Shown: positions 8,910-38,642 of the stretch, piece after piece
Layout of the letters: each line of letters opens with the position of its first letter
Position numbering within the stretch: position 1 is the stretch's first letter
Virus record (IMG/VR): IMGVR_UViG_3300050821_010639
Location: 88,047 to 152,046 of that record
Direction: 5' to 3' (one strand)
DNA length: 64,000 nt
DNA from: a virus
Made by a program: the position numbers and the translations under genes
The notes under the pieces: generated by a model
Told to the model about the DNA's origin: nothing
Seen by the model: the letters and a program-made list of their open reading frames with translations, nothing else
Databases searched by the model: none

Positions 8910-9908
8910 CTAGAAGGGCGGTATGTCGCTCTCGGGGCCCGGGGACGACTCAGGCACGGTACCCGCCGTACGCCGCTTGGGGCGGAGCTGGTGGATGTCA
9001 GGGCCGCGCTCGGGGCAGCCGCACGCGCGGTCCTTGCACTCCGGGCAGTCGCCAACCCAGCACGAGAGGCACGTGGGCTTCTGCCCGCCGCGCCCCGGGC
9101 CCGCCGACGGCTTCGGCGCGGCGGGCGCGCGCTGCGCACGGGCCTTGGCCTTCTGGTAGCCGGACTTAGGGCGGCGGCCGAGCGGGGACGGCCGCCCGGC
9201 GAGCTGGCGGCCATCCCCGCCGAACCGCTTGCGCGAGACAGGCCAGAACAGCGCGCAGCCGTGGCCGGTGAACTCGTCTTCGAGAATGTGCAGCGCCATG
9301 CCTGCCGCCACCAGCCACCACAGGTCGGGGCGGGCGTAGACGACGGCCAGGGCGGCGATGCCGCACCCGGTGAGCGCCCGGCGCAGGCTCCCGTGATGGC
9401 GGTTCCGGCCGTGCCCGCCGTGAGTGAGGAAGCCAGTCGCCTTCAGCCCGGCCACCACGCAGACCGCGATGAACAGGGCGAGGCCGCCCAGCGCCCAGCG
9501 GTTCGGCCACCAGTCGGCGCAGCTGGCCGTGACCAGGGCCATGAGCCCGATGCCGAACAGGGAGTGGAACCCCTGCCGGTGCCCGCCGAACAGCACCGCG
9601 ACCAGGTGACTGGCACCGTGGCTCAGCGCGCCCGCCGAGTAGGCGAACGTCGCCTTGGGGTGGTCCGCGTCGGGCAGCAGGGCGAAGCCGGCGACCAGGG
9701 CGCCGTACAGCAGGTCGTGGCCGATGTTCCCGGCGACGGCGATGCCGTGCGCGTGCGGGGTGCTGGTCAGCAGGCCGAGGCCGGCCCCCAGCAGCAGCCC
9801 CGTAGCTGCGTGGGTGGTGCCCTCCATGTCGCCCTCGTGCTCCCCAGAGCGGTCTTTCGCCCTGACTGTGTAAGCGGTCCGGTAGCCCGGTGCTGTCGCG
9901 GTTGCCAT
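8910..9908 (-). CDS. YdjM-like (DUF457) membrane metal-dependent hydrolase with Cys-rich tail
   Basis: Residues ~30-200 show the YdjM/DUF457 pattern: THAATGLLLGAG, LLPDADHPKATFAYS, LSHGASHLVAV, HRQGFHSL and a later HILEDEFTGHG, with at least four hydrophobic helices. The His/Asp residues are those expected to hold the metal. The C-terminal ~90 residues add a basic linker and a Cys cluster (CLSCWVGDCPECKDRACGC), probably zinc-binding. ATG 9908 lies 6 nt after -10 TAGACT, so the message is probably leaderless. Substrate unknown. Confidence 0.7.
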   Translation of the reverse strand: MATATAPGYRTAYTVRAKDRSGEHEGDMEGTTHAATGLLLGAGLGLLTSTPHAHGIAVAGNIGHDLLYGALVAGFALLPDADHPKATFAYSAGALSHGASHLVAVLFGGHRQGFHSLFGIGLMALVTASCADWWPNRWALGGLALFIAVCVVAGLKATGFLTHGGHGRNRHHGSLRRALTGCGIAALAVVYARPDLWWLVAAGMALHILEDEFTGHGCALFWPVSRKRFGGDGRQLAGRPSPLGRRPKSGYQKAKARAQRAPAAPKPSAGPGRGGQKPTCLSCWVGDCPECKDRACGCPERGPDIHQLRPKRRTAGTVPESSPGPESDIPPF

Positions 9909-12287: not shown

Positions 12288-12328
12288 GGGCGCGGGGGCA
12301 AAACGGGCGGATACCGAAAAATTTCCCG

Positions 12329-12517
12329 CTAGCGGCGGGTTCCGCCGCGTCGCCGCAGGCTGTCGAGGTACACCAGGAACACCGCGCAGGCGATGCAGAC
12401 CACCCCGGCGAGCGCGTAGGCCCCGGTACTGGCGTCCAGCGAGGCTGCCACGACAGCGCCCAGGCCAGCCAGGAGCGCCCACGTGCGCGCGGTTCGGGTC
12501 GTCACGGCGGCAATCAC
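12329..12517 (-). CDS. Small membrane protein, about 58-62 aa
   Basis: Start is GTG 12517 or GTG 12505 in the same frame. Two hydrophobic helices (WALLAGLGAVVAASL; YALAGVVCIACAVFLVYL) and a basic C-terminus (RRRGGTRR). Confidence 0.55.
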   Translation of the reverse strand: MIAAVTTRTARTWALLAGLGAVVAASLDASTGAYALAGVVCIACAVFLVYLDSLRRRGGTRR

Positions 12518-12909
12518 TCCCGGGTGCCCGGCGGCCCGGCAGCGGGCCGCTCAGGGCCAGGATATCCTGCGGGAGATGAGCGGGAACGGCGAAGGAAGTG
12601 CGGCCCGGAGCGCCACGCTGCGGCCCTGGGGCGCTCCTCGCGGGCGCGTGAGGCCCGGCGGGCCCGTTTCGGGCTGCTACGGGGCTCCTGGGGGCCCTGG
12701 CGGGCCTCTCAGGGCCAGCCTGGGGGCTACAGAGCGTGTTCGTCAGCGTCAGGTTCGGTTTTTCCCGTTTGGCCTTCGGCTTTTCCGGAACAGTGGTCCG
12801 GTTAGCGGGCCCGCACGGCTCACGGGCCCCTCGCGCGAAAGCTCCTGACACGCTCACCGGGGCCTCCGCCCAGTCGTCGGCCTCCGGCCGTTTACCACGC
12901 TGTACGCGC
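12518..12909. other. Intergenic stretch without a convincing gene
   Basis: Very GC-rich with many short GGCC-type palindromes. A rightward frame (12576-12848) is open, but its Gly/Arg/Pro composition does not look coding. I see no promoter of the operator family and no clear terminator. Confidence 0.5.
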
Positions 12910-13335
12910 TCACCGCGTCACCTCGTGCCCGAGGAACACGGCCCGCTCCCCCGCCGGCCTGGACGAGCACGACCGGCCGCCGCCCCCGTCCACGTAGCCG
13001 TCCGGGCGCCAGAACACCGGCGCCCCGCAGTGAGCGCACGCCTCGCTGTCCTCCAGGGCGACGACCGCGCCCGCCGCGGCGTGAGCCTCCTGCACCGGGT
13101 ACGTGGCGATGACCCGCCCCAGCACCTTCCCCGTCGCCTGGCGCACCGCGTCCCGCGTCATCCGGACGGCCATCTCCGCCTGCACGTCCTCCAGCAGGCG
13201 GCCCTCGAACCGGGACCCGGGGCCGCTGCCCTCGGCCTCGTAGTTGCGCTCGATGCGAGCGAGGGCGTCGGCTACCTCCCTGACCAGCGGGTCTGAGGGG
13301 CGGGGCTTGTTCGGGGAGTTCTGCGCCGTACTCAC
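12910..13335 (-). CDS. Hypothetical protein with CxxC, 141 aa
   Basis: GTG 13335 overlaps the preceding stop. Helical N-terminal ~80 residues (DPLVREVADALARIERNYE), then a CAHCGAP motif. Last gene of the transfer-like operon. Confidence 0.6.
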   Translation of the reverse strand: MSTAQNSPNKPRPSDPLVREVADALARIERNYEAEGSGPGSRFEGRLLEDVQAEMAVRMTRDAVRQATGKVLGRVIATYPVQEAHAAAGAVVALEDSEACAHCGAPVFWRPDGYVDGGGGRSCSSRPAGERAVFLGHEVTR

Positions 13336-13565
13336 CCCGGCAGCCCCCTCAGCGCTACGCCCTTCGCCTTCAGCTCGTCGAGGATGTCCTGCTCGGTGCG
13401 CCCGTAGTGAACGACGATGACCATCTCCGGCAGCCCGAGCGCCCGCAGGTCTTCCTTCCTGACCCTGACGGGCTCGCCCGCTGCCAGCCGGGTCACGTTC
13501 TCCCCGGACAGGCCCAGGAACAGCAGGTCCGTCCCGAATGCCGTCTTGCCGGCTGCCTTGATCAC
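13332..13565 (-). CDS. Hypothetical protein, 77 aa
   Basis: GTG 13565 behind GAGGAGGAG. Alpha/beta sequence (EDLRALGLPEMVIVVHYGRT). Part of the operon with the FtsK-like gene. Confidence 0.65.
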   Translation of the reverse strand: MIKAAGKTAFGTDLLFLGLSGENVTRLAAGEPVRVRKEDLRALGLPEMVIVVHYGRTEQDILDELKAKGVALRGLPG

Positions 13566-13783
13566 GTCTCCTCCTCAGGCCCGACCCGCCACCGGCACTC
13601 CGGGTGACGGCACGTCATCTGGACAAGCCCCTGGTCAGCCAGGGACTGCATCAGGTCGGCCACCCTGGACGGGGTGTTCACGTAGACCTGCACCTCCGGG
13701 TCGGCCTGGATCGCGCGCAGGGTGACGATCCCGTCGACCGCCGCCCTGCGCGCCGCTGCCAGCACGATGTCCGCTACCCGCAC
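13562..13783 (-). CDS. Small winged-helix-like protein, 73 aa
   Basis: The pattern VNTPSRVADLMQSLADQGLVQ followed by a CRHPECRWRV tail looks like a short winged helix with a possible Cys-His metal site. Starts one base before the translocase stop. Confidence 0.5.
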   Translation of the reverse strand: MRVADIVLAAARRAAVDGIVTLRAIQADPEVQVYVNTPSRVADLMQSLADQGLVQMTCRHPECRWRVGPEEET

Positions 13784-15799
13784 TTACCGCTCCTCGCTGT
13801 CCGCTGCCCTGGCCGGGGGCGGGGTGACCCGCCACAGCCTGCGGTTGCCGCCCCCCACCTGACTGGTACGGCCGAACGGGACCATGCCGTCGAGCGCGGT
13901 GTAGATCCAGCCGCGCGAGCGGTTGACCGTGGCCTTGAACTCCTTGCGGGACATGATCTCGTGCGCGCCGACCACCTCGGTGCCCTCGGCGTACATCTTC
14001 AGCAGCAGGCTCCACAGCGCCTCCTCCGCCCGCACCGCCTGGTGGTCCTGCGGGTGGGCGGCCGGGACCGGCTGGCCCCAGGGGCCGGCCACCACCGTGG
14101 AGTCCTTGCGGGGGCGGCCGGGGCCGCGCCGCTGCTCGGCCCCGGGAACCTGGCCGCCGTAGCCGGACACCTCGCTGGCCGGGCGGCCGGGCTCGGCCTC
14201 GAACGCCTCGCCGGTCACGTCGTCCCACGGCCGGGAGGCGGCCGGCCAGTCCGCCATGTACGCGGCGACGGCCTGGCCGGCCGCCGGGGACCGGCCCCAG
14301 TCGAGGAACCGGACCGGCATGGCCGCCTCGCGCTCGGACATCCCCTCGAAGTCGGCCACCGCCGTGCCCTTCTGGCTGTCGCGCCACAGGGTGGGGCGGA
14401 CCCCGGCCTTCATCTGCCGGTCCGACAGCGCCGTCTTGACGTCGTTGGCGTCGTCCAGCCCGAAGGTGATCGGGTGGAAGTTACCGCGGACCTCGGTCGG
14501 GAAGGACTTGTAGCCGCCGCTCTGGTTGGAGACGTTCCAGCTCATGCCGGAGGACCGGCCCGCCCGGACGTTGGTGAACCAGGTCTTCATGTCGAACGGC
14601 TGGCGGGTGCTGCCCCTGGACGCCTCGGCGAGGGCGTCAAGGATCTCGCCCAGCTCCTCCAGCGCGATGTCCAGGTAAGTCAGGCCGCAGCCCAGCGTCC
14701 ACTCGGTCATGTGGTTCTTGCTCAGGTAGTCCAGCCGGGCCACCCGCACCCGCTCCAGCGCGGTGAACAGCCTCAGCGCGCTGGCCGGGTCGATGGCAGC
14801 CGCGTGCAGGCCCGCCCGGACCGGGCCGAGGAACTGCCACAGCTTGGTGACGTCCACCGCGACCATCGCGTAGCCCTCGCGGGTGACGCCCTCGGCCAGC
14901 CGGTTCCACAGCCAGCTCATGGTCTTGCCGCTGCCGGTCATGCCGGCCGCCCGGGTGTGGGAGACGGGCAGCATGCTCAGCAGCCACGGCTCGCCGTCCT
15001 GGCGCACGGCCAGGCGGAACGGGACGGACATGTCCGCGCCGGGCGCGCTCGGGCCGGTCCACGGCCACGGCTGCGCGAGCACGGCCGGGTCCGAGACGGT
15101 GTAGTCGGCGAAGCCGCCGTGCCCGGCGTTCTGGGTCAGGCCCAGCGCGCCGGGCGGGAAGCCCATCGCCCCCTCCAGGTTGGCGGCGCGGGCGGCGGCG
15201 TCGGCCGGGGTGACCTCGCCGCCGTCCAGCGCCACCGTGCCTGACAGGACCCGGCCCCGCCGCCCGCGCGGCTTCGGCGCGGCCGGGACGCCGCGCGGGC
15301 GGCGGGCGGCCGGCAGGACGCGCGCGGTACCCAGGCCGGCCTTCTCCGTGGCCGCGCCGAAGCCCACCGACATGTCGTGGTGCGCGGCGTGGTGCAGCCA
15401 GGCGTCCCAGCCGATCGAGCCGGCGATGCCGCCGAACGCCCACACCAGGACCAGCGGCACCCAGTACCCGGCCAGCAGGAACGCGCCGGCCATCGCGGCG
15501 CCCGCGCCGATGGTGACCGGGCCGATGGACCGGCCGGCCACCGACATCCGGTGACGGCGCAGGTGCCAGTCGAACGCCGCCGTGCCGATGCCGCTCAGCA
15601 GCACCAGCGCGGCGGTCAGCCCGATCCACTCGCCGTGGTCGATGACCTTGCCGAGCGCGATGTAGAGCGCGTTGCCCATGATGGTGACCGCGAGGAAGAT
15701 GGCCCACGGCACGCCCATGCGGACCAGCACGCTCAGCGTCTCGCTGCGGGCGTGCCTGGCCTGCTGCTTCATGGTCGGCGTGGTGTCGTTCGACGGCAT
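13784..15799 (-). CDS. FtsK/SpoIIIE-type DNA translocase (TraB-like)
   Basis: 671 residues: N-terminal hydrophobic segments at about 28-50, 58-75 and 95-125, a Walker A motif GMTGSGKT at 286-293, a Walker B-like VAVDVTK about 30 residues later, and a C-terminal winged-helix domain at about 590-660 (ALWSLLLKMYAEG, RSRGWIYTALDG). This architecture matches the membrane-anchored translocases that move double-stranded DNA in mycelial conjugation of actinomycete plasmids. Start has Shine-Dalgarno GGAGGTGG. It sits in an operon with DUF2637 and HTH genes as on such plasmids. Its role in a phage is unknown. Confidence 0.8.
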   Translation of the reverse strand: MPSNDTTPTMKQQARHARSETLSVLVRMGVPWAIFLAVTIMGNALYIALGKVIDHGEWIGLTAALVLLSGIGTAAFDWHLRRHRMSVAGRSIGPVTIGAGAAMAGAFLLAGYWVPLVLVWAFGGIAGSIGWDAWLHHAAHHDMSVGFGAATEKAGLGTARVLPAARRPRGVPAAPKPRGRRGRVLSGTVALDGGEVTPADAAARAANLEGAMGFPPGALGLTQNAGHGGFADYTVSDPAVLAQPWPWTGPSAPGADMSVPFRLAVRQDGEPWLLSMLPVSHTRAAGMTGSGKTMSWLWNRLAEGVTREGYAMVAVDVTKLWQFLGPVRAGLHAAAIDPASALRLFTALERVRVARLDYLSKNHMTEWTLGCGLTYLDIALEELGEILDALAEASRGSTRQPFDMKTWFTNVRAGRSSGMSWNVSNQSGGYKSFPTEVRGNFHPITFGLDDANDVKTALSDRQMKAGVRPTLWRDSQKGTAVADFEGMSEREAAMPVRFLDWGRSPAAGQAVAAYMADWPAASRPWDDVTGEAFEAEPGRPASEVSGYGGQVPGAEQRRGPGRPRKDSTVVAGPWGQPVPAAHPQDHQAVRAEEALWSLLLKMYAEGTEVVGAHEIMSRKEFKATVNRSRGWIYTALDGMVPFGRTSQVGGGNRRLWRVTPPPARAADSEER

Positions 15800-15800
15800 G

Positions 15801-16742
15801 TCAGGCCACCTCCTCCAGGTTCCCGTCCGCCAGCGCCTTCAGCAGCTGGTCGGCCTTGTGCTTGCTGACCTGGTAGGTACGCCAGATCTCGTTGCGGCTC
15901 ATGGACGCAAGGACGCGCCGCAGCTCGTCCCTGCCCTCCGGCAGCGGCAGCCGGTCGTCGCCCACCGCCTTGACCCCGCGCGGCTTGGCAGCCGGGCGCT
16001 GGGACAGGCCCATGGACGGGCCGACCACCGGGATGGCGAACCGGGGCAGCTGCGCTGGCTCAGGAGCAGCCGCGGGGCTCACCAGGCCCCACGGCGCTCC
16101 CTCCGGGCGCGGGCTGAGGGTCAGCGCCCGGGACAGGTCACGGCATGCCGTGACCTCTGGCTCCGGCCCGGGTGCGGCGGGCTCAGGTGCCTGCGGGAGA
16201 AGCTCGGCGGCGATGCGCGCCATCGCCAGCGGGGCAGCGGCCAGGACAGAGGCGACCGACGGCTTAGCGTCGCCCTGGACACGGCGGCGGTACCGCAGCC
16301 ACATCTCGAACAGGAAGGTCGAGCAGGCGAACGCCTGCGCCGGGACCGTGGACCACAGCGCCGCGCCCAGGTTGTGCCCCTGCACCGCGGCCACGATGAC
16401 CTGGTGGCCCTGCATGACCGCGGGGTGGGCGGCCCAGCCGCTCGCCCAGTTGGCGAGCAGCGACTCGACCAGGCCCGGCAGGAAGCCGACCAGGCCCCAC
16501 CACCGGCCCTTGCCCTTGACCTCCATCAGGATGACCGACCCGATGGCGATCTGGCCGTCCACGGTCAGCGGCATCAGGTGCGCGGTCTTCCAGCTCTGGT
16601 TCTCGGTGATGGTCAGCGCGCTGATGTGGGTGTAGGAAATGAAGCCGGTGGAGGCAGCCACGACGGCCAGCGACAGGCCGACGACCAGCGCGGAGGCCCG
16701 CTCGCGCGCCGCCTTAATCACACCGCCGAGGAACTCGAACAT
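15801..16742 (-). CDS. DUF2637 membrane protein
   Basis: ATG 16742 overlaps the TGA of the HTH gene. The first ~150 residues contain several hydrophobic segments, including ALVVGLSLAVVAASTGFIS and the DUF2637-like LMPLTVDGQIAIGSVIL. The C-terminal half is Pro/Ala-rich and ends in a helix-turn-helix-like segment (NEIWRTYQVSKHKADQLLKA). DUF2637 proteins accompany TraB/FtsK-type genes on actinomycete plasmids and integrative elements. Confidence 0.7.
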   Translation of the reverse strand: MFEFLGGVIKAARERASALVVGLSLAVVAASTGFISYTHISALTITENQSWKTAHLMPLTVDGQIAIGSVILMEVKGKGRWWGLVGFLPGLVESLLANWASGWAAHPAVMQGHQVIVAAVQGHNLGAALWSTVPAQAFACSTFLFEMWLRYRRRVQGDAKPSVASVLAAAPLAMARIAAELLPQAPEPAAPGPEPEVTACRDLSRALTLSPRPEGAPWGLVSPAAAPEPAQLPRFAIPVVGPSMGLSQRPAAKPRGVKAVGDDRLPLPEGRDELRRVLASMSRNEIWRTYQVSKHKADQLLKALADGNLEEVA

Positions 16743-17023
16743 CACGCCACCGCCATTTCGCCAGTCAGGCCGCGCTCGGCGAACCACTGGCGGCCGATGA
16801 CGGCGACGTCCGCGGCCTTGCCGGGCCGGGTGCCGTTGAGCACGTCGTCCAGCCACGACTGGTAGGTCTGCCACAGCCCCGGGGTCATCACGGCGGGCAG
16901 GAAGCCCAGCCGGTACCAGTTCTTCAGCGTGTCCTCGGACACGTTCAGCACCTGCGACGCGCGGTCAAAGCGGACAAGCCGGTCCTTCCGGCTGACCCGC
17001 GTCGCCTGCCCGTTCGTGTCCAC
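16742..17023 (-). CDS. Helix-turn-helix protein (MerR/excisionase-like)
   Basis: The segment FDRASQVLNVSEDTLKNWYRLG is a clear helix-turn-helix, followed by WLDDVLNGTRPGKAADVAVIG. 93 residues, GTG start. First gene of the leftward operon and divergent from the GntR regulator, so it may be a transfer or excision regulator. Confidence 0.65.
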   Translation of the reverse strand: MDTNGQATRVSRKDRLVRFDRASQVLNVSEDTLKNWYRLGFLPAVMTPGLWQTYQSWLDDVLNGTRPGKAADVAVIGRQWFAERGLTGEMAVA

Positions 17024-17070
17024 TCCCCTGTACTCCTTCAGCCTCTGCCGGAATCACCGCGATTCCGCTC

Positions 17071-17099
17071 ACTGTACGGTGAACGGTACAGGTTCGCAA
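17071..17099 (-). promoter_or_regulatory. Operator and promoter of the transfer-like operon
   Basis: Leftward -35 TTGCGA (17099-17094), 17-nt spacer, -10 TACAGT (17076-17071). The spacer and -10 are covered by the palindrome CTGTAC-N8-GTACAG (17072-17091), unlike the CTTGAC operators. A second inverted repeat, GGAATC-N5-GATTCC, lies at 17050-17066. The divergent GntR gene makes it the likely binding protein. Confidence 0.6.
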
Positions 17100-17175
17100 G
17101 ATGTTCCCCTGACCCCGGATTTCGCCGAAGTAAAATCGGGGCGTACGTGAACTATCCGAATAACAGGAGGCTGCG

Positions 17176-17913
17176 GTGCCCCAGGTCCAGCGAAGTGAGC
17201 CGATGTGGCGGCAGGTCGCCAGCCACTACAAGGGAATGATCTTGCGCGGTGAGCTGCGCGAGGGCGACCAGCTCCCGTCGGTCCGCCAGATCCGCGACGA
17301 ATGGGGCGTGTCCCAGGGGGTCGCCCAGCGGGCGGTAGAGCACCTGCACCTGGCCGAGCGCCTGGTGGCCACCGGGCCGTCCGGCACCGTGGTGGCCGCC
17401 CCCCGGGCCGCGTTCGGACCGCAGCAGCGCATGCGGCTGACCGCCGCGCCGGCCTCGGAGGTGGTCACCGTCACCTCGGCGGGCCTGGTGCCGGCGCCGG
17501 CCTACGTGGTACCGCTGCTGGGCCTGGCCGAGGGAGACCCGGTGATCCGGCGCGAGGAGGTCACCCGGCGGGCCGACGGCAGCCCGCACAGGCTGAGCGT
17601 CACCTGGTGCGCCCCGCAGTACAGCCTGCCCGTGCCGGAGCTGACGGCGGAAGAGCCGCTGCCTGACCCGCGGGGAGCCGGCCCGCTCATCGCGCAGCGG
17701 CTGGAGGTCGAGGCCGGCAACCTGCACGGGGGCGTCGCGTTCGAGGCCCGGCTGGCGAAAGACGACGGGCGCGAGCTGCCGGCGCTGGGCCTGGCGGCCG
17801 GCGCGTTCGTGCTGGCCGGGGTGAGCGGCTGGCGGTACGGGGACGACACGCTGGAGTACACCGAGTTCGTCCTGCCGGCCGGGCAGGTGGTGGAGGCCGA
17901 CATCGAGCCGTAG
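17176..17913 (+). CDS. GntR-family regulator with UTRA domain (KorSA-like)
   Basis: GTG 17176 with AGGAGG 5 nt upstream. Residues ~8-75 form the GntR winged helix (ILRGELREGDQLPSVRQIR, then WGVSQGVAQRAVEHL). Residues ~95-240 look like a UTRA ligand-binding domain. KorSA-type members control transfer genes on actinomycete plasmids, consistent with its divergent position next to the HTH-DUF2637-FtsK operon. A strong terminator follows. Confidence 0.8.
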   Translation: MPQVQRSEPMWRQVASHYKGMILRGELREGDQLPSVRQIRDEWGVSQGVAQRAVEHLHLAERLVATGPSGTVVAAPRAAFGPQQRMRLTAAPASEVVTVTSAGLVPAPAYVVPLLGLAEGDPVIRREEVTRRADGSPHRLSVTWCAPQYSLPVPELTAEEPLPDPRGAGPLIAQRLEVEAGNLHGGVAFEARLAKDDGRELPALGLAAGAFVLAGVSGWRYGDDTLEYTEFVLPAGQVVEADIEP

Positions 17914-17978
17914 CGTGTAGCCTGCGTGACAAGGAGCTATTGCCACTCGCTTCAGTTGTGCAAGACCTGGAGCAGCGG

Positions 17979-18019
17979 AGAGCCCCGCCCCTCGCGAGGG
18001 GCGGGGCTCTTTTATTTTT
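17979..18019 (+). terminator. Very strong intrinsic terminator after the GntR gene
   Basis: Perfect 15-bp arms (AGAGCCCCGCCCCTC / GAGGGGCGGGGCTCT) with a 2-nt loop, followed by TTTATTTTT. Confidence 0.95.
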
Positions 18020-19150: not shown

Positions 19151-19378
19151 ATGGCCGAGCTTGACCCGGCACTGACCGTTGCCTGCCCGCTTTGCAAGGC
19201 GGAGCGCGGCCAGCCTTGCCTCTCCCGCAACGCGGTGAGCGTTCACCAGGCCCGGCGCAGCGCCCTCCAGGGCCTGACCTCCCGGGCCAACGCGATTCTC
19301 CGCAAGGCCGACGGCCCGTCTAAGACCCCGGCCGCGAAGCGCAAGCGCGGGAAGCGCCGCACTAACCGCCGATCGTAA
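19151..19378 (+). CDS. Phage-type zinc-finger protein, 75 aa
   Basis: ATG 19151 with CGGAGG 8 nt upstream. CPLCKAERGQPC followed by VHQARRSAL fits the small zinc finger (CPxC...GxPC...HxxR) frequent in actinomycetes and their phages. The C-terminus is strongly basic (AAKRKRGKRRTNRRS), so nucleic-acid binding is likely. Its end overlaps the convergent gene by 17 nt. Confidence 0.7.
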   Translation: MAELDPALTVACPLCKAERGQPCLSRNAVSVHQARRSALQGLTSRANAILRKADGPSKTPAAKRKRGKRRTNRRS

Positions 19379-20018
19379 TTTCAGTGCGAAAAACCCATGC
19401 GACTCCCGGCTCTTTCACGCCGTAGCCGGCAGGGTGCGACCGCCGGTTAACCATGACCGGCTGCTCGCCGGCGTAGGCGCCGCGCAGCGCGTGGTGCGGC
19501 TCCGGCGTGAGCGGCCCGGTCGCCCAGCACCACTCGTGCCAGGCGAAGCAGGCCTCGGACTCAGCGAACGTGGCCTGCCCCCCGATGACGCCCGGCCGCG
19601 GCACGTGCGGGTAGCCGGCGTCCATCGGCCGGTACCAGGTCTGCCCCGGTTCCTCGCCACTGACCGGGCCGAGGTGAACGTGCTCGCGGTCGAACGCGGT
19701 GGCGTCCCCGCCCACCCCGAACGCGGCCCGGCCCGCCTCCAGCGCGTGCCCGCCCAGCCCGGTGAGCAGCAGCGCGAGGTTAAGGGTGCCCCCGACCGTC
19801 ACCCCGTTGCCCTCGTCGTAGACGGTGCCGCCCTCCGGCTCGCGAAACAGCAAGCGCATCAGGCTGCCGTGCAGCACGGTCCGCGGAGCCAGGGCGAGCC
19901 GCTGCGACCACGGGACCTCGCGGCGCTCGCGCGCGTACCGGACCTGGTCGGGGCTGTACTTCTCGATCGTGCACACAGGGTGCCAGGTGATGCCGTCACG
20001 GGCGAGGGGCGAGGCCAT
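19362..20018 (-). CDS. Hypothetical protein, 218 aa
   Basis: Start set at ATG 20018 (MASPLARDGITWHPV); the frame upstream reads like non-coding sequence. Several W/H/Y-rich segments (WHEWCWATGPLTPEPHHAL). No Shine-Dalgarno; a GACGATTG element sits exactly 7 nt before the ATG. Function not recognised. Confidence 0.6.
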   Translation of the reverse strand: MASPLARDGITWHPVCTIEKYSPDQVRYARERREVPWSQRLALAPRTVLHGSLMRLLFREPEGGTVYDEGNGVTVGGTLNLALLLTGLGGHALEAGRAAFGVGGDATAFDREHVHLGPVSGEEPGQTWYRPMDAGYPHVPRPGVIGGQATFAESEACFAWHEWCWATGPLTPEPHHALRGAYAGEQPVMVNRRSHPAGYGVKEPGVAWVFRTEITIGG

Positions 20019-29097: not shown

Positions 29098-29961
29098 TCA
29101 GACGTACGCGTCCCCCCAGGCGAAGAGCGCGGTACCCGCAGTGACTGAGATCGAGTTGGCCCCCGGCAGCAAAGTCATCCACATCCGGCTGCCGATGTGG
29201 CCCAGGCCGCCGACCACGTTGTTGCCCACGGCGTCGAGCGCGGTGTAGCGCAGCACGTCCACCGTGACCGGCCAGGACTGGACGCCCGCGCCCGTGTGAG
29301 AGAAGGCCACGCCGGCGGTGTTGTTGGTGACCGTACAGGCCTGGGAGACCGCGACGGTAAAAGAGTTGATCGCGGAGGCGAACCCCTCGCCCACCACGCC
29401 CTCGCCGAGCGCGGTAATCGTGCCGCCGCCCGTGCCCACCACCTGCGACCGCTGAGCGGAGTAAAAGTAAGGGTCGCTGAGCAGCAGGTCCACGCTGAAA
29501 GCCGCGTTGGTCCGGCTGTTCATCGTCGGGTCCATGCTGCCGGCGATCTCGGCCATCGCCGTGGAGGTGACCATGGTCGGCGAGCCGCCCTGGGTCAGCC
29601 ACCAGTTGCGCTGCAGCTGGCCTTGCACGCTGCCCTGCGCCCCGCGGGTGAAGAACAGCTGGCGGAGCATCTGGAAGTTGTCGTTGAACGCGCGGCGCGG
29701 GTCGCCCGCCGGGTACGGCTGGCTCGCCGACATCTGGCTGTCGGTCCACATGGTCAGCGTGATGGTGCGCTCGTCCAGGTACTTGCCCCGGAACAGCTGG
29801 CCGGAGCGGTAGGGCACCTCGTAGTCCTGGCCCCGGTTGGTGGGGACGCCGAAGCGGGAGCCGCCGAAAGTGGCCACGTTGTAGTAGCTGGACTGAAGCG
29901 GAATACCGTTCCAGTACCACATTTCCGCTGGCAGGTAAGCAGCTACCGGGGCAGCGACCAT
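29098..29961 (-). CDS. Distal tail-type protein
   Basis: 287 residues from ATG 29961, overlapping the tape-measure stop by 19 nt. Position directly after the tape measure and sequence pattern (YNVATFGGSRFGVPTNRGQD, then TITLTMWTDSQM) match the phage tail-protein/Dit group that caps the tail tube. An alternative longer frame upstream is antisense noise. Confidence 0.7.
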   Translation of the reverse strand: MVAAPVAAYLPAEMWYWNGIPLQSSYYNVATFGGSRFGVPTNRGQDYEVPYRSGQLFRGKYLDERTITLTMWTDSQMSASQPYPAGDPRRAFNDNFQMLRQLFFTRGAQGSVQGQLQRNWWLTQGGSPTMVTSTAMAEIAGSMDPTMNSRTNAAFSVDLLLSDPYFYSAQRSQVVGTGGGTITALGEGVVGEGFASAINSFTVAVSQACTVTNNTAGVAFSHTGAGVQSWPVTVDVLRYTALDAVGNNVVGGLGHIGSRMWMTLLPGANSISVTAGTALFAWGDAYV

Positions 29962-32900
29962 AAGATCATGCCTCGCCCTCCGAGGAACGCAAGCCTGTTG
30001 GACGTCCGGGTAATCGAGTCCTCGGTAGCGGCAGGCCGCGGGTTGTTGATGGTCAGGGCGTCCACGTGCAGCCCCACCCGGGTGCTGGCCGCCCCGTCCG
30101 CCATGGTGCGCGGCATCTCCCTGGAGGCCGACGCCGACAGCTGGCGCGAGAGGGTAGCCGACATGCCGGGCACGAACAGGCTGGGCACCAGGCCGCCGGC
30201 CGCCATGCCGCCGCTGAACATCCCGGCCACGCCGGCCAGCCCCGGGACCTCGCCGCCGCCCGCCAGGCCGAAGCCCATGTTCCCGACCGCGGGCGCGGCC
30301 GGGCCGCCGACGATGAGCTTGTTCAGGTCGATGAGCGTGCCGCCGCCGGTCCCGCCCGGCCCGGAGGGGGCCCCTGGCGTGCCGGCCCCCCCTGTCCCGC
30401 CCCCGCTGCCACCGGAACCCGGAGCCGGGGTGAGCGTGGTGCCCCAGATGCCGTGCCACGCGTTGTAGGCGTCCACCACGTCTGCCTGGAACTTAGCCAG
30501 GTTCGACTGGATCGGGCTGTAGAGGGCCGGCTCCCTGGACTGGGCCAGCGTGGCCACGTCCATCGCCGCCTGCCAGCGGCGCACCGAGCTGTTGGCGGTC
30601 GACCACATCGCCGGGGTCAGCTCCTGCGGGTTCGTCTTCAGGTCGGTGAACAGCGGCGCGATGTAGCTGCCCGCCACCGACACCCGGTTCTCGATCGCCG
30701 CCCTCGTCGCCAGCCAGGACTTCCAGTCGGCGGCCGACACCCCGGCCGGCTGCCGGGTCCAGGCGTTCAGTGACTTCCACGGCTGCAGCGCGCCCTCCCA
30801 GTCCGGGTACAGCCGGGCCGCCTCGGCCTGGTAGGCGGCCACGTCGCCGGACGGGGCGGCTGACAGGCTCTGCCCGGGGGCCGGGGCGAGCATGTTCTGC
30901 ACGGCGGTCCACGCGTCGGTCAGCCGGCCGGTGGCCGGGGTGCTCCAGTGCGTGCCGAGCGTGGTCGACGCCATCGCCGCCGCGTTGAGCGCGGCGTTCG
31001 CCGGGGTGTTCTTCCACGCCGACGCGGAAGAGCCCAGTACGCCCTTGGCGTAGGCCGGCTCCACCAGCCGGGCCGCCGTGACAGGGTCCTGGGCCTGCGC
31101 CTGGGTGAGGCCCTTGTGCTTGGCCAGGCTGAGGAGCCACGCGCCGTACTCGCCGTAGGAGGGGGCCGACCCGGCCGCGTTCTGCGCGGTCAGCAGGTAC
31201 GAGCCGAGCGCCATCGCCTCGCGCGTGTCGGCGTTGGGGGTGGTCGCCAGGATGGCGGTCATCACCGGGCCGCCGCCCGCGTACCAGTGGTAGGCCTCCT
31301 CGTGCGCGAGCGCGCCTGCCGGGGTGCCGTAGCGCTGGGCCACGTAGTTGAGGAACGCGGTCACCTGGCCCGCAGCGGTACCCGCGTTCCCCCCGTACTG
31401 GGCGTACTCGCTAGGCCCGTCAATGAACTGGGCAATGCCGTAGGCGTCCGACGTGGGGTTCTGCGCGTTGAGGTTCCAGCCGGCCTCGTCCATCTCGACC
31501 GCGTTCAGGTCGTCCCACAGCGCCCCGGTCCAGCCGCGCGCGGCTGCCATCGCCTTGGCCAGGGCCTGCACCTGCCCCGCCGACCCGCCGACCGCGTTCG
31601 CTGCCGTGGCCCCCGCGGTCTTCGCGACCGACGCGGTGGCCGCCGCGGTCTGGGCGGTCATCCAGGTGGCGACGCCGTTGTGGATGTCCTGCAGCCAGGC
31701 GGCGCCCATGTCGCCCGGCGTGCCGAGCGCCTCCAGCGCCTTCTCGGCAGGCACCCCGGCGGCCGACCACATCGCGTTGAAGACGGCCTGCTCACCGAAC
31801 GAGGCCACGTCCTTGGCCGCGCCGGCGATGCCGTCCCAGGCAGCCGACGCCGCGCCCTTCACCCCGGTGACCGCGTCACCTAGCCAGTTGGTGATGTTCC
31901 CGATGACGCCGCCACTGGCGTACCGGCCGTGCCCGGTGCCCCGCTGGGAGGCCGCGTTGCCGCGCGAGCCCGAGCCCAGCCAGGTGTCCGCCTGGTTGAG
32001 CTGGTCCATCACGTCCGGGCCGTAGGCGGCCTGCAGCGCCATCCGGGCGGGCTTGCGGACCATGAACTCGCCGCCCACGGCGACGATGTGCGTGCCGTCC
32101 TCGTCGCCGGTGCCGGGCACCGAGCCGGACACCGCGTGCACCGGGCCGCCGCCGGCCAGCTTGGAGATGGTGCCGATGTGCACGCCGACGATCGACGTCA
32201 CCGAGTTGATCCACCCGATGACCGTGTTCAGCCCGTCGATGACGTGGTCAATCCCGCCCTTGAGGGAGTTCCACATGGCGTTCGGCAGGGTGGAGGTGAA
32301 GAAGTTCTCGATCGGGGTCAGCACGTCCCGGCTGAACGCCGACCAGGTGTTGGACCAGGCCCTGGTGGCCGCCGCCGTGAAGCTGTCCCACCACTTGGGC
32401 ACGTCGCCGGTGAAGAAGTTCTGCAGCGGGGCGAGCACCGTCTTGCTGAATCCGGACCAGACCGCGCTCCACGCCTTGGTGGCGTCCGTGGCCAGGCTGT
32501 TCCACCAGCTAGGGATGCTGCCGGTGAAGAACTTCTGCAGCGGGGCGAGCACCGTGGTGTCGAACGACTTGACGTTGGCGTTCCACAGGTTCACCCACCA
32601 GCGGCTGACGGAGTTGAACCAGCCGGGCACCGTGCCGGTGAAGAACTTGCCCAGCGGCTGCGCCACGTTGGCGTTGAACTGGGCGGCGGCAGGCCCGAAC
32701 CAGATGTGCCACAGCTGGACCGCCAGCGCGGCGATGGCCTGGAACGTGGTACCGAAAAACGCCTTCAGGGCATTGAAAACCTGGATGCCCCACGACTGGA
32801 TGTCAATCCAGGCCTGGTGCCAGTGGCCGGTCACCACGTCGAGCGCCACGGAGATGATCGCGACCACCGTGTCCCAGGTGATCTTGGCTATCGCGACCAC

Positions 32901-35900
32901 GGTGGCCCACGCGCCCTTGAACGCGAAAGACAGGATGTCAGCAGCGGACTTCGCAGCCTTTTCGACAAATCCGAAAAAGACTTCGGCTCCGAACTGAATC
33001 GTGGACCAGACAGCGGAGCCGGAGACCTTCAGCCACTGCCAGGCCTGCGCCCCGGATTCCCGCAGGCCCTTCCAGACGTAGCCCCAGGCCGAGGACCCGG
33101 CCGAGGACAGGAAGCCCCACGTCGCGGAGCCGGAGACCTTCAGCCACTGCCAGGCCTGTGCCCCGGCCTCCTGGAGCCCCTTCCACACGTCCCGGGTAAA
33201 GCTGTTGTCGGCTGCGGCCTGCATGACGTGCCAGAAGCCGGTGCCGGTGTCCTTGATGAAATCGAACGCCTTGACCGCAGCCCCGCTGATTTCGCCCCAG
33301 ACGGTATCCCAGGTCGCCATGAGCGCCTGGCCGTGGGTGGCCCACCAGGGGTCGAAGTTGGAGGCGACCCAGCTGGTCACGTCACCGAACCCGCGTACCA
33401 CCGGCGCCGCCACGTCGCGCCAGGTGTTGTTCCAGGCCGTGCCGAAAGCGTGCGGAACCGACTGGGTGAACCAGTCGAACATGCCGTCCCAGGCTGCCTC
33501 GAAGGTCCTCGCTACCGGGCCCCACACAGCGCCGAACCCGTGCGGCACCGACTGGGTGAACCAGTTGACCGCCCCGTCCCACGCGGACTCCACGGCGTGG
33601 ACGGAGACCTTCGCCGCCTCCGGCAGGTCGTGCACGAAGAACTGGCCGATCGCGTGGTTCATGATCTCCAGGCCGCGCTGTACCTGGGGAATCCACGCGA
33701 GGAACGTCAGCTCGTAGAACGTGCCGTCTTTGAAGGACTTGAGCAGCGTGTCGACCTCGCCCGGCTTGACCAGGTTCGCCGTAGAGCTGGCCGTTGCCGC
33801 CAGCTGGCCGCGCAGCTTGCTCAGGCTCGCGTTGTCAAGGTCGGAGACATCGCCCTTGGTGGCCTTGAGCTTGTCCTGCAGGGCCTTAAGCTCCAGGTCC
33901 TTGATCTCCGTCTCGACCTGGAGCTTCTTCTTCCCGGTCAGGCCCGGCAGCTCGGCCTTGAGCTTGTCCGCCTTCTGGAGTGCCTGGACCGCGTCCAGCT
34001 CGTAAGTGGTCTTGACGCTCTTCGGGAGCGCGGTGACCTGGACCCACAGCGCGTTCGCCTGCTTGGCGCTCAGCCCCATCGCCTCGCCGAAGCCCACGAA
34101 GTTGGCCTTGGCGCTCGCGCTGCTGCCGGAGACCGCGAGCAGCTCAGCGGCCACGTTGTGCGCCGCCGCCGCGGTAGCGGCGCTGGACGGGCCGGACTTG
34201 GCCAGCGCGTCGGCGAACGTGTTGAAGACCGCCTGCCCGCCGTGGGCATTGAAGATGGCGGCGGCCATCGCCGGGTTGAGCAGGCTCTGCAGGGTGTTAG
34301 TCAGCCGGGCCGCGTCCTGGCTCAGGTTGGAGGCCCCGATGGCAGCGTCGCTGCTGGCCTTGTACAGGGCCTGCAGCGGGTCGACGGCGTTGCCCACCCA
34401 CTGCTGCAGAACCTTGATGTTGTCGGTGGCCGGGCCGCCCGCCTCCTGGGCAAGGGCGGAGATCTGGGCCGCGGCCTCCTTGCTGCCGCCGGCCATGGGG
34501 ATGAGGGTGGCGACCGCGTTCTTGACGAACGCCGTGAAGTTGCCGCCGCCGGCCAGCGCCTGGGTGTTACGGAACGCGTCGAACAGCTGCTCGACGTTGT
34601 TGTAGTTGGACTGGAAGTCGTTCTGCAGGGTGATGCTGGGCCCGCTCAGCCCGGTCATCGCCGCGCCCGCCTTGGCGGCGTCGGAGTTGAACCCGGCGAT
34701 GCTCTGCGCCAGGGTGAGGACGGCGGACGGGCCGCCGGCCACCGTCTTGGTGAAGGTGTCGTAGGCGGTGTTCAGCTTGCCCATCGAGGCGACTTGCGCG
34801 GAGTTCTCCAGGTTCAGCGCGTTCAGGTCGGAGCCGATGGCCCCCAGCTGCTGGCCCATCGCCTGGTACCCGGCGATGAGCCCCTTCACCTGCTGCTCAG
34901 CGGTCGCCCAGACGCTGGCCTGGTTGCTGAACAACTGGTTGGTGGTGACCCCGGCCGCGTTCAGCAGGCTCAGCGCGCCGACGAAGTTCGTCCCGTAGGC
35001 CTTGGAGACGTCGCCGACGTGGGTCAGCTCCTCCTGGAGCTTGCCGGACAGGTCCGACTGAGACGCGGCCAGCTCAGAGGCGTTGCCGACGCCGGTCTGC
35101 TGGGCCTTGTTGAGGGTGGTGGTGACCTCGGCCAGGTTGGACACGGTGGTGGAGACCACCGTGAGCAGCGACGCCTTCTGAACGGCAGCGCCCATGGCAT
35201 CGGTGAACTGCTTGGTCTGGTCGGCCCGGGTGCCCAGGTAGACGCCGACGGCGATGAGCGCGGCGCCCAGCAGGCCGAGGTCCACGTAGACGTTGGACAG
35301 CACCGGGGCAAGGCCGCCGAGCATGGCCAGCAGCCCGCCCCCGCCGCCGACCGCCTCGGCAGCGCCCTCAGCGCCGGCACCCAGTTCTTCAGCCCCGGTC
35401 GCCGCGCCGCCCAGCTTCTCGGCCATCCCGGCCAGCTGGGTGTCGCTCGCGCCGGCGGCGATGCCCAGGGCGACCGACTTCTTGCCCGCGTCGTCCAGGC
35501 CCTCGCTGAACCTCTCCAGCCGGGCCGCCGAGGTGGTGCCGGCCCCGGCCACGAAGTCTTCGACGCTCTGCCCGGTGGCCTTGATGGAGACGGCGAGCTG
35601 GGCCAGCTCCTCCTCGCTGGCCTTGGCCCCGAGCGCGTCGGAAACCGCCCCGACCTCGGCGCTGCTCCTGGTGATGTTGACCAGCTGGGTGTTGGTCGCG
35701 CCCAGCGCGCGGGCCACCGCCTCCGCCCCGGCGTTGAGGGCGGGGAACTTGCCGAGGAGCCCGGCCAGCCCGATGACCACCTTGCCCACCACGTCGGCGG
35801 CGAGCCCGCCCCACAGCACGATGGCGTGCAGCCCGAGGCCGGCGGCCAGCAGCGGGGTGGGGGTGACCTTAACGATGTCGGCAGCGATCTTGAGGATGAA

Positions 35901-38642
35901 GTCACCGATGACGGCCAGGTCCTCGGCCACGTGCGTGAGGGCCGTGGCCTGGATGAACTTGGCGACGATGACGCCCAGGGAGTCGAACCCCTGGCCGATG
36001 AGCGCGAGGTCCCTGGCGCCGACCGCCAGGAAATTCTGCAGCCCGCCTCCGCCGCCTTGCAGGGCGACGACGACCTTGGCGGCGAACCTGTCCAGGTAAC
36101 TGCCGGTCTGGTTGATGAGCTGGCCGAGGACGCCGGTCTTGTTGCCCGCCGCGGTCAGGTAGTCACCGAGCAGCTCGTAGACCTGCGGGCGGACCGCGTT
36201 CTCCAGCTTCTGGAAGTTGCTGGTCAGCGGCGGGATCGTGGTGTTAAGGGCATTGCCGACCGTGCTCAGGCTCTGCCACTGCTGGAAGATCTCCTTGAAC
36301 GACTGGTAGCCGGCCGCGCCGAACGCGATGAGCCCGGCCCCTGCCGTGACCAGGGCGGGCACCCACAGGGCCAGCACCTCGACAACGCTGTCCAGCAGGA
36401 TGTGCCAGAGGGCTACCTGGCCGATCATGTGCGTGTCGCCCAGCAGGCCCGACCACAACTGGACCTGCGTCCGCAGCAGGCCGATGCGCCAGCCCATGTT
36501 GACGGCGGCGTCGCTGTCGGCCTTCATCGCGGCGGCGGCCTTGGCCGCCGGGTCGGCCAGCCCGCCGAGCCCGGCCTTGACGTCGTACAGGGCGCGGCCG
36601 GCATCGGTCGCGGACTGGTCCGCGTCGCGCATCGCCTGGGCGATCTGCTCCCACGCGCGCGACTCGTCCGGGTCGGGCACGTCACCGCCGGGGTCGCCCG
36701 GAGGCGGCCCCCCGCCACCGCCGCCGCCGGAGGCGCCGCCCATGCCGGCGGTGACGCGGTTCTCCGCCGCGCGTGCCTCTTCCAGCTCGCGGACCCAGCT
36801 GGCCAGCTCCGCCTTGGCCGCGTCGTCACCGAAGCTGGCGTAGAACTCGTACTTGCGCTGGACCGCCTCGATGAGCGCGCTCATCCACCGGGACAGCCCG
36901 CTCTCGGCGCCGGTGTCCTCGAAGTCGGCGCGGGTGCCCACCTCGCGCTCAATGTCCTGGATGTCGCGGCTGTAGTCGCGGACCTCCTCCGACGCGCCGC
37001 TGGAGTCAACCACCAGGATGGTGTCCACCTCGTGCGGGATGTCGCGCAGGCCCTCGTCCAGCCCCTCGGCTGCCATCCGGGCCTGCTCGACCTCCTCGAA
37101 GTCGACCCCGAGCCGGGCCTGCGCGTGCTCGTTCAGGTGCGCCAGCTCGCTGGCCAGCAGCTGGGCCTCGGTAACCCCCTGCACGAGGCTGCCGTCCTCG
37201 ATCTCCGGGCGGGCCGGGTGGTCGTCCAGCCACTCCATCTCAACGGCGATCTTGTCCAGCACCTGCTCGGCTGCCGTGCCGCCCTGGACAGCTACCTTCT
37301 CAGTGGCCGTGCCGCCCTGCATGTACTTGCTCAGGCCGGACCACAGCTCCTCTTCCTCCGCCGGGCGGGCGACGACCTGCATGGGCGCGGGCACCGGGTA
37401 GCCGCGCGGGGCGTCGGAGATGACCCCCTCGCGCAGCGCCCCCGCGACGTCCTGCAGCCCGTAGAGGTCGGCGAGGTTCTGGTTGCGCTGCCCGGGAGTG
37501 ACAGGAGCTGCCCGCTTGCCCCGGCCGCCGCGCTGCGGGACGAACCGGGCGCCGGCCTCCGACAGCAGCTGCTCGGCCGCGGCGAGCCGCCCCAGGCCCT
37601 GCTCCAGCGCGCGGGCGTCAACCGCGGCGAGCGCGAGCGAGTCCTGGAACTTGGCGATGGCGTCGGCGGAGACCGCGGTCTTGTCATTCAGCAGCGCCAT
37701 CGAGCCCGCGAGCGCGCCGGTGCCGTCGGACGCGGCGGACAGCGCCTCTCCCGACAGGGGGCCTGGTCCTGACCCGGTGACGGCCAGCGGGGCGCGCAGC
37801 GCCTCCGGGCGGGCTCCGGCGACCGCCTGGGACAGCGCGCGGTTGACCGCCGCGTAGTCGATGTCCGGCCGCACGGAGACCGGCACCGTGGCGTGCTGCG
37901 GCGTGAGCGGGACACCGCCGAGGCGCGAGGCCACCGACACGATGTCCACCCGCTCGGAGCCCGGCAGCCCGAGTAGCGCCGCCCGGTAGGCGGCGAGCTG
38001 CGACATCGCCTGGCCGTCATCGAGCACCGCCTTGGTGACCACCGTGTCCGGCAGCCCGACCAGCGCCGCGCTGTAGGCGTTGAGCGCGCCCAGCCCCTCG
38101 CCGAGGCTGCCCGCCGTGGCGTGCGTGCCCTGCAGCGCGTTGGCGTGCGCGAGCAGCAGCTGGGTCTCGGCGCTGATGGCCGCGCTGCGGTCGCGGATAG
38201 CCGCCGACAGCGAGGCGGTCTGCATGGTCTCGCGCTGCAGGAAGCCCAGGTACTGGTCAGCGGTCTGGTAGCCGGCGAAGTGCGCCCGGTTCTCCAGCAG
38301 GGCGAGGTTGTACATCTGCTGGCGGTAGGACATGGCCTGCTGGACCGAGGAGAAGCCGAGCCAGTGCTGCCGGTTGAGCAGGGTGGTGTAGTTCAGCTCC
38401 TGACTCAGGTCACTCAGGTGCTGGGTCATGTCGTTCCGGCCGCCGTACAGCAGCTGGGTGTTAGTCGACTTGGCCGACTGGGCCAGCTGGGACAGGGCCG
38501 TCGTCTGCTGCTGGATGGCCTGGACGTCCCTGGCCCGCGCGGCAGCCGCCTGGGTAGAGCCCGTCACCTCGGCCGCGGTCTCCGCCTTGACCGCGTCCGA
38601 CATGCCCTGCAGCGCGGCCTTGGCCTCGGCCGCATCCCGCAT
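29943..38642 (-). CDS. Tape measure protein with lytic transglycosylase-like domain
   Basis: 2899 residues. Long helical N-terminal third; hydrophobic segments around residues 720-780 and 1110-1130; Trp-rich repeats of ~40 residues near 1900-2130 (VLAPLQKFFTG, VPKWWDSF). A soluble lytic-transglycosylase-like domain lies at ~2360-2465 (AMAAARGWTGALWDDLNAVE, AYGIAQFIDGPSEYAQYGG, EEAYHWYAG). Tape-measure length sets tail length. The true N-terminus is uncertain: GDFGSL reads in frame just before ATG 38642 with no start, and an endonuclease gene sits immediately upstream. Confidence 0.9.
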   Translation of the reverse strand: MRDAAEAKAALQGMSDAVKAETAAEVTGSTQAAAARARDVQAIQQQTTALSQLAQSAKSTNTQLLYGGRNDMTQHLSDLSQELNYTTLLNRQHWLGFSSVQQAMSYRQQMYNLALLENRAHFAGYQTADQYLGFLQRETMQTASLSAAIRDRSAAISAETQLLLAHANALQGTHATAGSLGEGLGALNAYSAALVGLPDTVVTKAVLDDGQAMSQLAAYRAALLGLPGSERVDIVSVASRLGGVPLTPQHATVPVSVRPDIDYAAVNRALSQAVAGARPEALRAPLAVTGSGPGPLSGEALSAASDGTGALAGSMALLNDKTAVSADAIAKFQDSLALAAVDARALEQGLGRLAAAEQLLSEAGARFVPQRGGRGKRAAPVTPGQRNQNLADLYGLQDVAGALREGVISDAPRGYPVPAPMQVVARPAEEEELWSGLSKYMQGGTATEKVAVQGGTAAEQVLDKIAVEMEWLDDHPARPEIEDGSLVQGVTEAQLLASELAHLNEHAQARLGVDFEEVEQARMAAEGLDEGLRDIPHEVDTILVVDSSGASEEVRDYSRDIQDIEREVGTRADFEDTGAESGLSRWMSALIEAVQRKYEFYASFGDDAAKAELASWVRELEEARAAENRVTAGMGGASGGGGGGGPPPGDPGGDVPDPDESRAWEQIAQAMRDADQSATDAGRALYDVKAGLGGLADPAAKAAAAMKADSDAAVNMGWRIGLLRTQVQLWSGLLGDTHMIGQVALWHILLDSVVEVLALWVPALVTAGAGLIAFGAAGYQSFKEIFQQWQSLSTVGNALNTTIPPLTSNFQKLENAVRPQVYELLGDYLTAAGNKTGVLGQLINQTGSYLDRFAAKVVVALQGGGGGLQNFLAVGARDLALIGQGFDSLGVIVAKFIQATALTHVAEDLAVIGDFILKIAADIVKVTPTPLLAAGLGLHAIVLWGGLAADVVGKVVIGLAGLLGKFPALNAGAEAVARALGATNTQLVNITRSSAEVGAVSDALGAKASEEELAQLAVSIKATGQSVEDFVAGAGTTSAARLERFSEGLDDAGKKSVALGIAAGASDTQLAGMAEKLGGAATGAEELGAGAEGAAEAVGGGGGLLAMLGGLAPVLSNVYVDLGLLGAALIAVGVYLGTRADQTKQFTDAMGAAVQKASLLTVVSTTVSNLAEVTTTLNKAQQTGVGNASELAASQSDLSGKLQEELTHVGDVSKAYGTNFVGALSLLNAAGVTTNQLFSNQASVWATAEQQVKGLIAGYQAMGQQLGAIGSDLNALNLENSAQVASMGKLNTAYDTFTKTVAGGPSAVLTLAQSIAGFNSDAAKAGAAMTGLSGPSITLQNDFQSNYNNVEQLFDAFRNTQALAGGGNFTAFVKNAVATLIPMAGGSKEAAAQISALAQEAGGPATDNIKVLQQWVGNAVDPLQALYKASSDAAIGASNLSQDAARLTNTLQSLLNPAMAAAIFNAHGGQAVFNTFADALAKSGPSSAATAAAAHNVAAELLAVSGSSASAKANFVGFGEAMGLSAKQANALWVQVTALPKSVKTTYELDAVQALQKADKLKAELPGLTGKKKLQVETEIKDLELKALQDKLKATKGDVSDLDNASLSKLRGQLAATASSTANLVKPGEVDTLLKSFKDGTFYELTFLAWIPQVQRGLEIMNHAIGQFFVHDLPEAAKVSVHAVESAWDGAVNWFTQSVPHGFGAVWGPVARTFEAAWDGMFDWFTQSVPHAFGTAWNNTWRDVAAPVVRGFGDVTSWVASNFDPWWATHGQALMATWDTVWGEISGAAVKAFDFIKDTGTGFWHVMQAAADNSFTRDVWKGLQEAGAQAWQWLKVSGSATWGFLSSAGSSAWGYVWKGLRESGAQAWQWLKVSGSAVWSTIQFGAEVFFGFVEKAAKSAADILSFAFKGAWATVVAIAKITWDTVVAIISVALDVVTGHWHQAWIDIQSWGIQVFNALKAFFGTTFQAIAALAVQLWHIWFGPAAAQFNANVAQPLGKFFTGTVPGWFNSVSRWWVNLWNANVKSFDTTVLAPLQKFFTGSIPSWWNSLATDATKAWSAVWSGFSKTVLAPLQNFFTGDVPKWWDSFTAAATRAWSNTWSAFSRDVLTPIENFFTSTLPNAMWNSLKGGIDHVIDGLNTVIGWINSVTSIVGVHIGTISKLAGGGPVHAVSGSVPGTGDEDGTHIVAVGGEFMVRKPARMALQAAYGPDVMDQLNQADTWLGSGSRGNAASQRGTGHGRYASGGVIGNITNWLGDAVTGVKGAASAAWDGIAGAAKDVASFGEQAVFNAMWSAAGVPAEKALEALGTPGDMGAAWLQDIHNGVATWMTAQTAAATASVAKTAGATAANAVGGSAGQVQALAKAMAAARGWTGALWDDLNAVEMDEAGWNLNAQNPTSDAYGIAQFIDGPSEYAQYGGNAGTAAGQVTAFLNYVAQRYGTPAGALAHEEAYHWYAGGGPVMTAILATTPNADTREAMALGSYLLTAQNAAGSAPSYGEYGAWLLSLAKHKGLTQAQAQDPVTAARLVEPAYAKGVLGSSASAWKNTPANAALNAAAMASTTLGTHWSTPATGRLTDAWTAVQNMLAPAPGQSLSAAPSGDVAAYQAEAARLYPDWEGALQPWKSLNAWTRQPAGVSAADWKSWLATRAAIENRVSVAGSYIAPLFTDLKTNPQELTPAMWSTANSSVRRWQAAMDVATLAQSREPALYSPIQSNLAKFQADVVDAYNAWHGIWGTTLTPAPGSGGSGGGTGGAGTPGAPSGPGGTGGGTLIDLNKLIVGGPAAPAVGNMGFGLAGGGEVPGLAGVAGMFSGGMAAGGLVPSLFVPGMSATLSRQLSASASREMPRTMADGAASTRVGLHVDALTINNPRPAATEDSITRTSNRLAFLGGRGMILWSLPR

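Follow-up and report, generated by a model that had tools for sequence, protein, structure and literature searches.

A mycelial transfer module of the plasmid type, with a divergent TraB homologue, in a clade of large tailed phages

What might a DNA-transfer module of the kind known from mycelial plasmids do in the genome of a large tailed phage? The question is raised by a stretch of viral DNA of 64,000 nucleotides (called the window hereafter), which corresponds to bases 88047-152046 of a 152,046-base IMG/VR record (G000), the remainder of which was read too. Here a compact module (12329-18012) lies between the tail genes (from 21658) and small accessory genes, and it consists of a GntR/UTRA regulator gene on the plus strand and, divergent from it, genes for a small helix-turn-helix (HTH) protein, a DUF2637-like membrane protein and a TraB-type translocase; the surroundings are nearly all on the minus strand, save GntR and a few neighbours. 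We consider it about as probable as not (roughly 0.5) that a lineage of large, apparently virulent actinophages took up a mycelial transfer module once and kept it, and that its TraB protein pumps double-stranded phage DNA between hyphal compartments or between hyphae. GntR repression would then be lifted during infection, TraB would form a hexamer in the membrane, at septa or hyphal tips, to which a DivIVA-like protein of the phage may direct it, and its winged helix would bind phage DNA. Double-stranded phage genomes would be pumped into neighbouring compartments or hyphae and the infection would advance through the mycelium without virions, beside the ordinary lytic cycle.

The translocase gene (13784-15799, minus strand) encodes 671 amino acids, and homology to TraB extends over the full length of the protein. 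An hhalign comparison with TraB of pSN22, pJV1 and pCQ4 gave a probability of 100 (E = 5e-63, 590 columns), the NCBIfam family plasmid_TraB (NF041214) was matched by residues 31-662 (4e-43, 148 bits), and tblastn with the phage protein matched 43 actinomycete plasmids (best E = 6e-52). Searched by itself against Pfam, the protein had no match, and the TraB profile matched a solved DNA-translocase coupling protein weakly (E = 0.0013). Four hydrophobic segments within residues 22-131 form an N-terminal membrane anchor, followed by a Walker A (GMTGSGKT) and a Walker B motif (MVAVD), of which G286, G289, K292 and D316 are invariant across nine sequences. Since the AlphaFold2 (AF2) model of the whole protein was poor (predicted local distance difference test, pLDDT, of 47.5) and yielded no confident model of the motor fold, the fold search was limited to the C-terminal domain. 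These last 97 residues (13787-14077, minus strand) model as a winged helix (AF2, mean pLDDT 82) with Foldseek matches mostly to winged-helix DNA-binding domains, and they occupy the position of the domain that reads the TraB recognition sequences (TRS) in TraB of pSVH1. Judged by its sequence, the 671-residue protein is a divergent TraB homologue rather than a member of the curated equivalog, and it probably works like TraB.

The transfer regions of the Streptomyces plasmids pSN22, pJV1 and pSVH1 comprise a GntR regulator, traA, traB, spd and clt. As in these plasmids, the GntR gene of the phage is divergent from an operon that encodes a membrane-anchored, FtsK-like TraB with a C-terminal winged helix. 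An initial annotation of the window had proposed a module of the mycelial transfer type in a tailed phage, and the layout bears this out, since GntR is divergent from the traB operon just as it is in pSN22 and pJV1; the four genes it had named are all present and close to where it had placed them. In contrast to the three plasmids, the module resides on a large tailed phage, its TraB is only about 26% identical to theirs, HTH and DUF2637-like genes stand at the position of traA, and neither clt nor spd was recognised. In Streptomyces, TraB moves double-stranded DNA across mycelial membranes (PMC12857230); it recognises 8-bp repeats and takes part in intramycelial transfer with Spd proteins (PMC12857230, PMC4170104), the two together driving spread across septa (PMC12857230, PMC5133688).

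The module is carried by a tailed phage whose 152-kb genome is complete and maps as a circle. Both ends of the record have 19 bases in common and their end-to-end joining creates a single continuous reading frame across the junction, with a signal-peptide-like start, therefore we regard the map as circular and the genome as complete. Among the relatives, G004 has an exact end overlap of 127 bases and G001 one of 144 bases at 99.3%. The genes of G000, which were called in this analysis by codon usage, include those for terminase, portal and major capsid protein, so that phage virion genes are present, as well as replisome genes for a clamp, a clamp loader, a DnaB-type helicase and a UvsX-type recombinase; a DNA-polymerase-like protein was spotted by eye only. 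There are also 35 tRNA genes for nearly all amino acids (L004:3336-8466). The possession of its own replisome together with 35 tRNAs suggests a virulent phage.

Is the module a stable part of such phages? Capsid relatives were gathered from viral contigs and 20 larger records were searched. TraB is present in G000, G001-G004, G006 and G015 and, as a separate case, in G013; the search for it was negative in G007-G012, G014 and the Microbacterium phage Magritte. GntR occurs in the same set plus G005, whose contig starts just before the GntR gene and which we count as the eighth carrier. Gene order is identical in all seven TraB-bearing contigs (G000 included), and since four genes recur in the same order in seven phage contigs, with TraB identities down to 35%, chance can be excluded as the cause of this arrangement. 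In all seven TraB copies the motor motifs are intact and the reading frame is free of internal stop codons. By capsid phylogeny the eight carriers group as a single clade (91/89, one change); in the TraB tree the seven phage proteins likewise form a clade (100/100), with G013 apart. Because the carriers are united on both trees, the module was inherited and is not a fresh insertion; a recent plasmid insertion is ruled out by the trees and the synteny. Identities of TraB and capsid are correlated (Spearman 0.80, for 21 non-independent pairs), and on these sequence comparisons the module looks like one old acquisition that goes back to a single ancestor. It is hardly credible that the module is a functionless piece of a plasmid which simply travels with the phage. 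Although TraB diverges faster than the capsid and some small open reading frames (ORFs) are private to G000, the module is whole, intact and syntenic over deep divergence, has one origin and preserves its motifs, and the seven intact, divergent copies largely refute the idea of a mere passenger.

The place of the acquisition can be narrowed down, since six relatives that lack the module also have the flanking phage gene at 19362-20018 (minus strand), which therefore marks the insertion neighbourhood. Two non-carriers, G007 and G016, still have the neighbouring tail gene and the homologue of 19362-20018, with unrelated genes at the module site. Magritte (OR553905), the nearest sequenced isolate by capsid (48%), has a similarly large, tRNA-rich genome, but unlike the carriers it has no relatives of TraB, GntR, DUF2637 or the DivIVA-like protein. 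G013, whose capsid is more distantly related, has a TraB of a different lineage (L107, 10444-12579), which points to a second acquisition, and further viral contigs (L151-L158) encode TraB relatives with 26-29% identity. Streptomyces phages, Satis among them, also have relatives of GntR, none of which was found beside an annotated TraB.

The sister group of the phage TraB clade consists of the Thermobispora bispora element NZ_CP039125 and the Nonomuraea gerenzanensis plasmid p1/pNon2, which form a pair in the tree and are the nearest relatives of the phage protein. This brings up another explanation, namely that the phage genome can be kept outside the chromosome, in the manner of pZL12 or the Thermobispora element, and that TraB spreads this plasmid form by conjugation. 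The circular Thermobispora element is indeed suggestive, as it combines portal, capsid, ParA and integrase genes with a divergent GntR gene, three small ORFs and TraB. Phage and tra genes are also combined in pZL12 and pCQ4, which resemble the carriers in that their phage genomes include a GntR regulator and/or tra genes of the FtsK/TraB type; pZL12 is a plasmid-phage for which conjugative transfer has been reported (PMC3583192), and pCQ4 has traA and traB a few genes away from its terminase gene. Moreover, a GntR repressor would suit a quiescent state. However, pZL12 and pCQ4 are plasmids of 85-90 kb, and pZL12 carries ParAB (PMC4487206), whereas the phage has a tRNA-rich genome of 152 kb with its own replisome, as expected of a virulent phage, and no par or integrase gene was found in it. 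The Thermobispora and Nonomuraea elements differ in the same way, since they carry ParA or ParAB plus an integrase, and their TraB is only about 29% identical to that of the phage. The FtsK-like protein of pZL12 is a remote relative of the phage TraB at best (hhalign probability 60%).

The searches for plasmid functions speak the same language. ParA was sought in a dedicated search of the carriers and tyrosine recombinases (PF00589) in all eight of them, both with negative outcome and with the Thermobispora element as a positive control; serine recombinases (PF00239) are likewise absent from all eight carriers, and a Pfam census of 165 proteins (50, 70 and 45) contained no Par, Rep, relaxase or integrase family. 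The phage-plasmid suggested by the initial annotation thus finds no support, as no ParA, ParB, Rep, relaxase, tyrosine recombinase or serine recombinase was found in the genome and its relatives. In addition, 84,980 bacterial and archaeal genomes contained no relative of TraB (searched by peptide patterns) or of the capsid, in a scan that finds close relatives only. Plasmid maintenance is therefore not supported by these searches. Replication systems of as yet unknown type exist, and some extrachromosomal mycobacterial prophages have no repA (PMC7157519). Altogether, we regard an extrachromosomal state with conjugative spread as fairly improbable. As for the Thermobispora element itself (145,352 bases), its portal, capsid, protease, integrase and ParA genes make it look like a phage-plasmid, and the gene series that starts at about 0.3 kb recurs from about 108.5 kb on, which suggests an over-long circular assembly of an element of about 108 kb. 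The distant relative G012 encodes a tyrosine integrase and a resolvase (34547-35185 and 93539-93940), so other members of the wider group may be capable of lysogeny.

How would the module be controlled? The regulator (17176-17913, plus strand) has the position of KorSA/TraR and the domains of a repressor, with Pfam matches to GntR (1.8e-8) and to UTRA (1.5e-4, just under the Pfam cut-off); its homologues in the other carrier phages are 73-45% identical. In the divergent promoter region an inverted-repeat search revealed the palindrome CTGTACGGT-GA-ACGGTACAG (17072-17091), the core of which is kept in the alignment of seven phages and which is likely to be the GntR operator. A promoter-like site for the GntR gene (17109-17136, plus strand), identified by consensus match only, is the sole sigma-70-like match in 12-20.8 kb (shuffles 0.2). 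The divergent operon begins with the small HTH protein (16742-17023, minus strand), which shows a weak excisionase-type HTH (E = 0.003) and whose gene is syntenic in seven phages. It is followed by the DUF2637-like membrane protein (15801-16742, minus strand), recognised by hydrophobic segments, alignment A3 and a DUF2637 match that lies below the cut-off in the window protein (E = 0.006) and above it in the syntenic copy of G015 (2.1e-10); with its C-terminal HTH-like segment, this protein is a candidate for an Spd- or TraA-like partner of TraB. The initial annotation had delimited the module to 12910-17913. The genes are indeed there, but the unit is slightly wider, because it is closed by terminator-like hairpins on both sides: a strong one after GntR (17977-18012, plus strand), with 16 pairs and then a T-rich tail, and one found by consensus match at the end of the tra operon (12325-12339, minus strand).

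A further gene of interest for the proposed transfer is found outside the module. The DivIVA-domain protein of the phage (20149-20769, plus strand; Pfam DivIVA 5e-7, with Wag31/Scy-like matches) has counterparts in the carriers, seven of eight possessing the gene, with G003 negative at the sensitivity used. No such gene was found in the non-carriers searched (G007, G008, G009, G011, G012 and Magritte) or, in contrast to most carrier phages, in the Thermobispora element. In Streptomyces, a DivIVA-based polarisome organises hyphal elongation, and TraB is assembled at the tips of growing hyphae and in vegetative septa, with Spd proteins as partners during spread (PMC5133688). From the co-occurrence of the two genes, the phage DivIVA-like protein perhaps places the phage TraB. 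The more specific proposal that a virulent lineage spreads its double-stranded DNA without virions by a captured conjugation motor, which its own DivIVA-like protein places at poles or septa, is tentative and in our view falls short of even odds. Polar targeting would also fit a purely intracellular task of TraB, which is a motor of the FtsK/SpoIIIE type and could distribute or clear DNA within a hypha that holds many genomes, for example by moving phage genomes to the growing tip, holding septa open or displacing the host chromosome, without any transfer to a further compartment or hypha. Yet the nearest homologues of TraB are transfer proteins of plasmids and phage-plasmids, the operon is laid out like plasmid tra regions, and the phage has a separate terminase, which makes such DNA handling within the cell improbable.

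Several observations weigh against the proposed pumping of phage DNA through the mycelium. That the host grows as a mycelium is deduced from the relatives of TraB only. The phage TraB, with its 148 bits, does not reach the equivalog cut-off of NF041214 (800 bits), and among isolated phages (INPHARED) there is no detectable TraB relative. TraB evolves much faster than the capsid, and its naive dN/dS ratio (nonsynonymous to synonymous substitutions; Nei-Gojobori) of 0.6 to over 1 is not interpretable, because the GC content at third positions is 0.98. No spd gene is identifiable in the module, with the DUF2637-like protein and the small ORFs as the candidates; spd genes are regarded as too diverse for assignment (PMC4170104). 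Finally, the 8-bp TraB-recognition repeats that the initial annotation had led us to look for were not recognised: neither 8-mer clusters nor direct repeats nor the pSVH1 consensus yielded anything above the repeats of GC-rich coding sequence, GACCCGGA is not enriched, and no clear repeat cluster emerged. It is known that clt differs from plasmid to plasmid (PMC3583192).

The lack of a recognisable clt on the phage would be in line with Tra proteins directed at rival conjugative elements or superinfecting phages and not at the movement of phage DNA. TraB elements are common in mycelial hosts, and in some carriers there is, in addition, a coupling protein resembling VirD4, whose Walker A motif is non-canonical. 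However, the motor and DNA-reading parts of TraB all look intact, and we consider exclusion very improbable. The coupling protein, a second conjugation-type ATPase of the VirD4/TraG type (TraG-D_C 1.1e-14), is encoded outside the window at G000:57734-59500 (minus strand; L006:17734-19500). It is also present in G001, G002, G004 and G005, has about 31% identity to coupling proteins of actinomycete plasmids, and its non-canonical Walker A motif is conserved, for example as GVPQS[IL]KT. pZL12.71c was considered as a close relative of either phage ATPase and rejected on comparison.

The presence of tra genes on phages is as such already known, with pZL12 and pCQ4, both true plasmid-phages, as precedents. 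These cases were described element by element, whereas in the present case tra genes in fixed synteny belong to an entire clade of large phages that look virulent. We found no report of tra genes passed on vertically within a clade of large phages of the virulent type in the literature searched, most subscription journals being outside its scope. These large soil viruses of actinobacteria may spread naked DNA through the mycelium without particles. If this is true, viruses that infect multicellular bacteria possess a route comparable to that provided by plant-virus movement proteins, with particle-free movement of genomes between connected cells. It would connect TraB with polar growth proteins and the spread of phages, and it would make testable how phages pass cross-walls and patchy receptors in mycelia.

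The remaining genes of the module are small and lie downstream of TraB. Region 12910-13783 holds three ORFs on the same strand as TraB. The first (13562-13783, minus strand, 73 amino acids) overlaps the next by 4 nt and has relatives in G001 and G002; the other two (13332-13565, 77 amino acids, and 12910-13335, 141 amino acids, both minus strand) have no detectable relatives and no Pfam or PHROG match. The last ORF before the operon terminator (12329-12505, minus strand, 58 amino acids) is conserved, with relatives in G002, G003 and G004. Near the module, at 8910-9827, the carrier phages also keep a homologue of a YdjM-like membrane protein. In the tail region, a very large protein of 2899 amino acids (29943-38642) is the probable tape measure. 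Elsewhere in the genome (loci L004-L006), the phage encodes a ribosomal protein L7/L12 with both the N- and the C-terminal domain.

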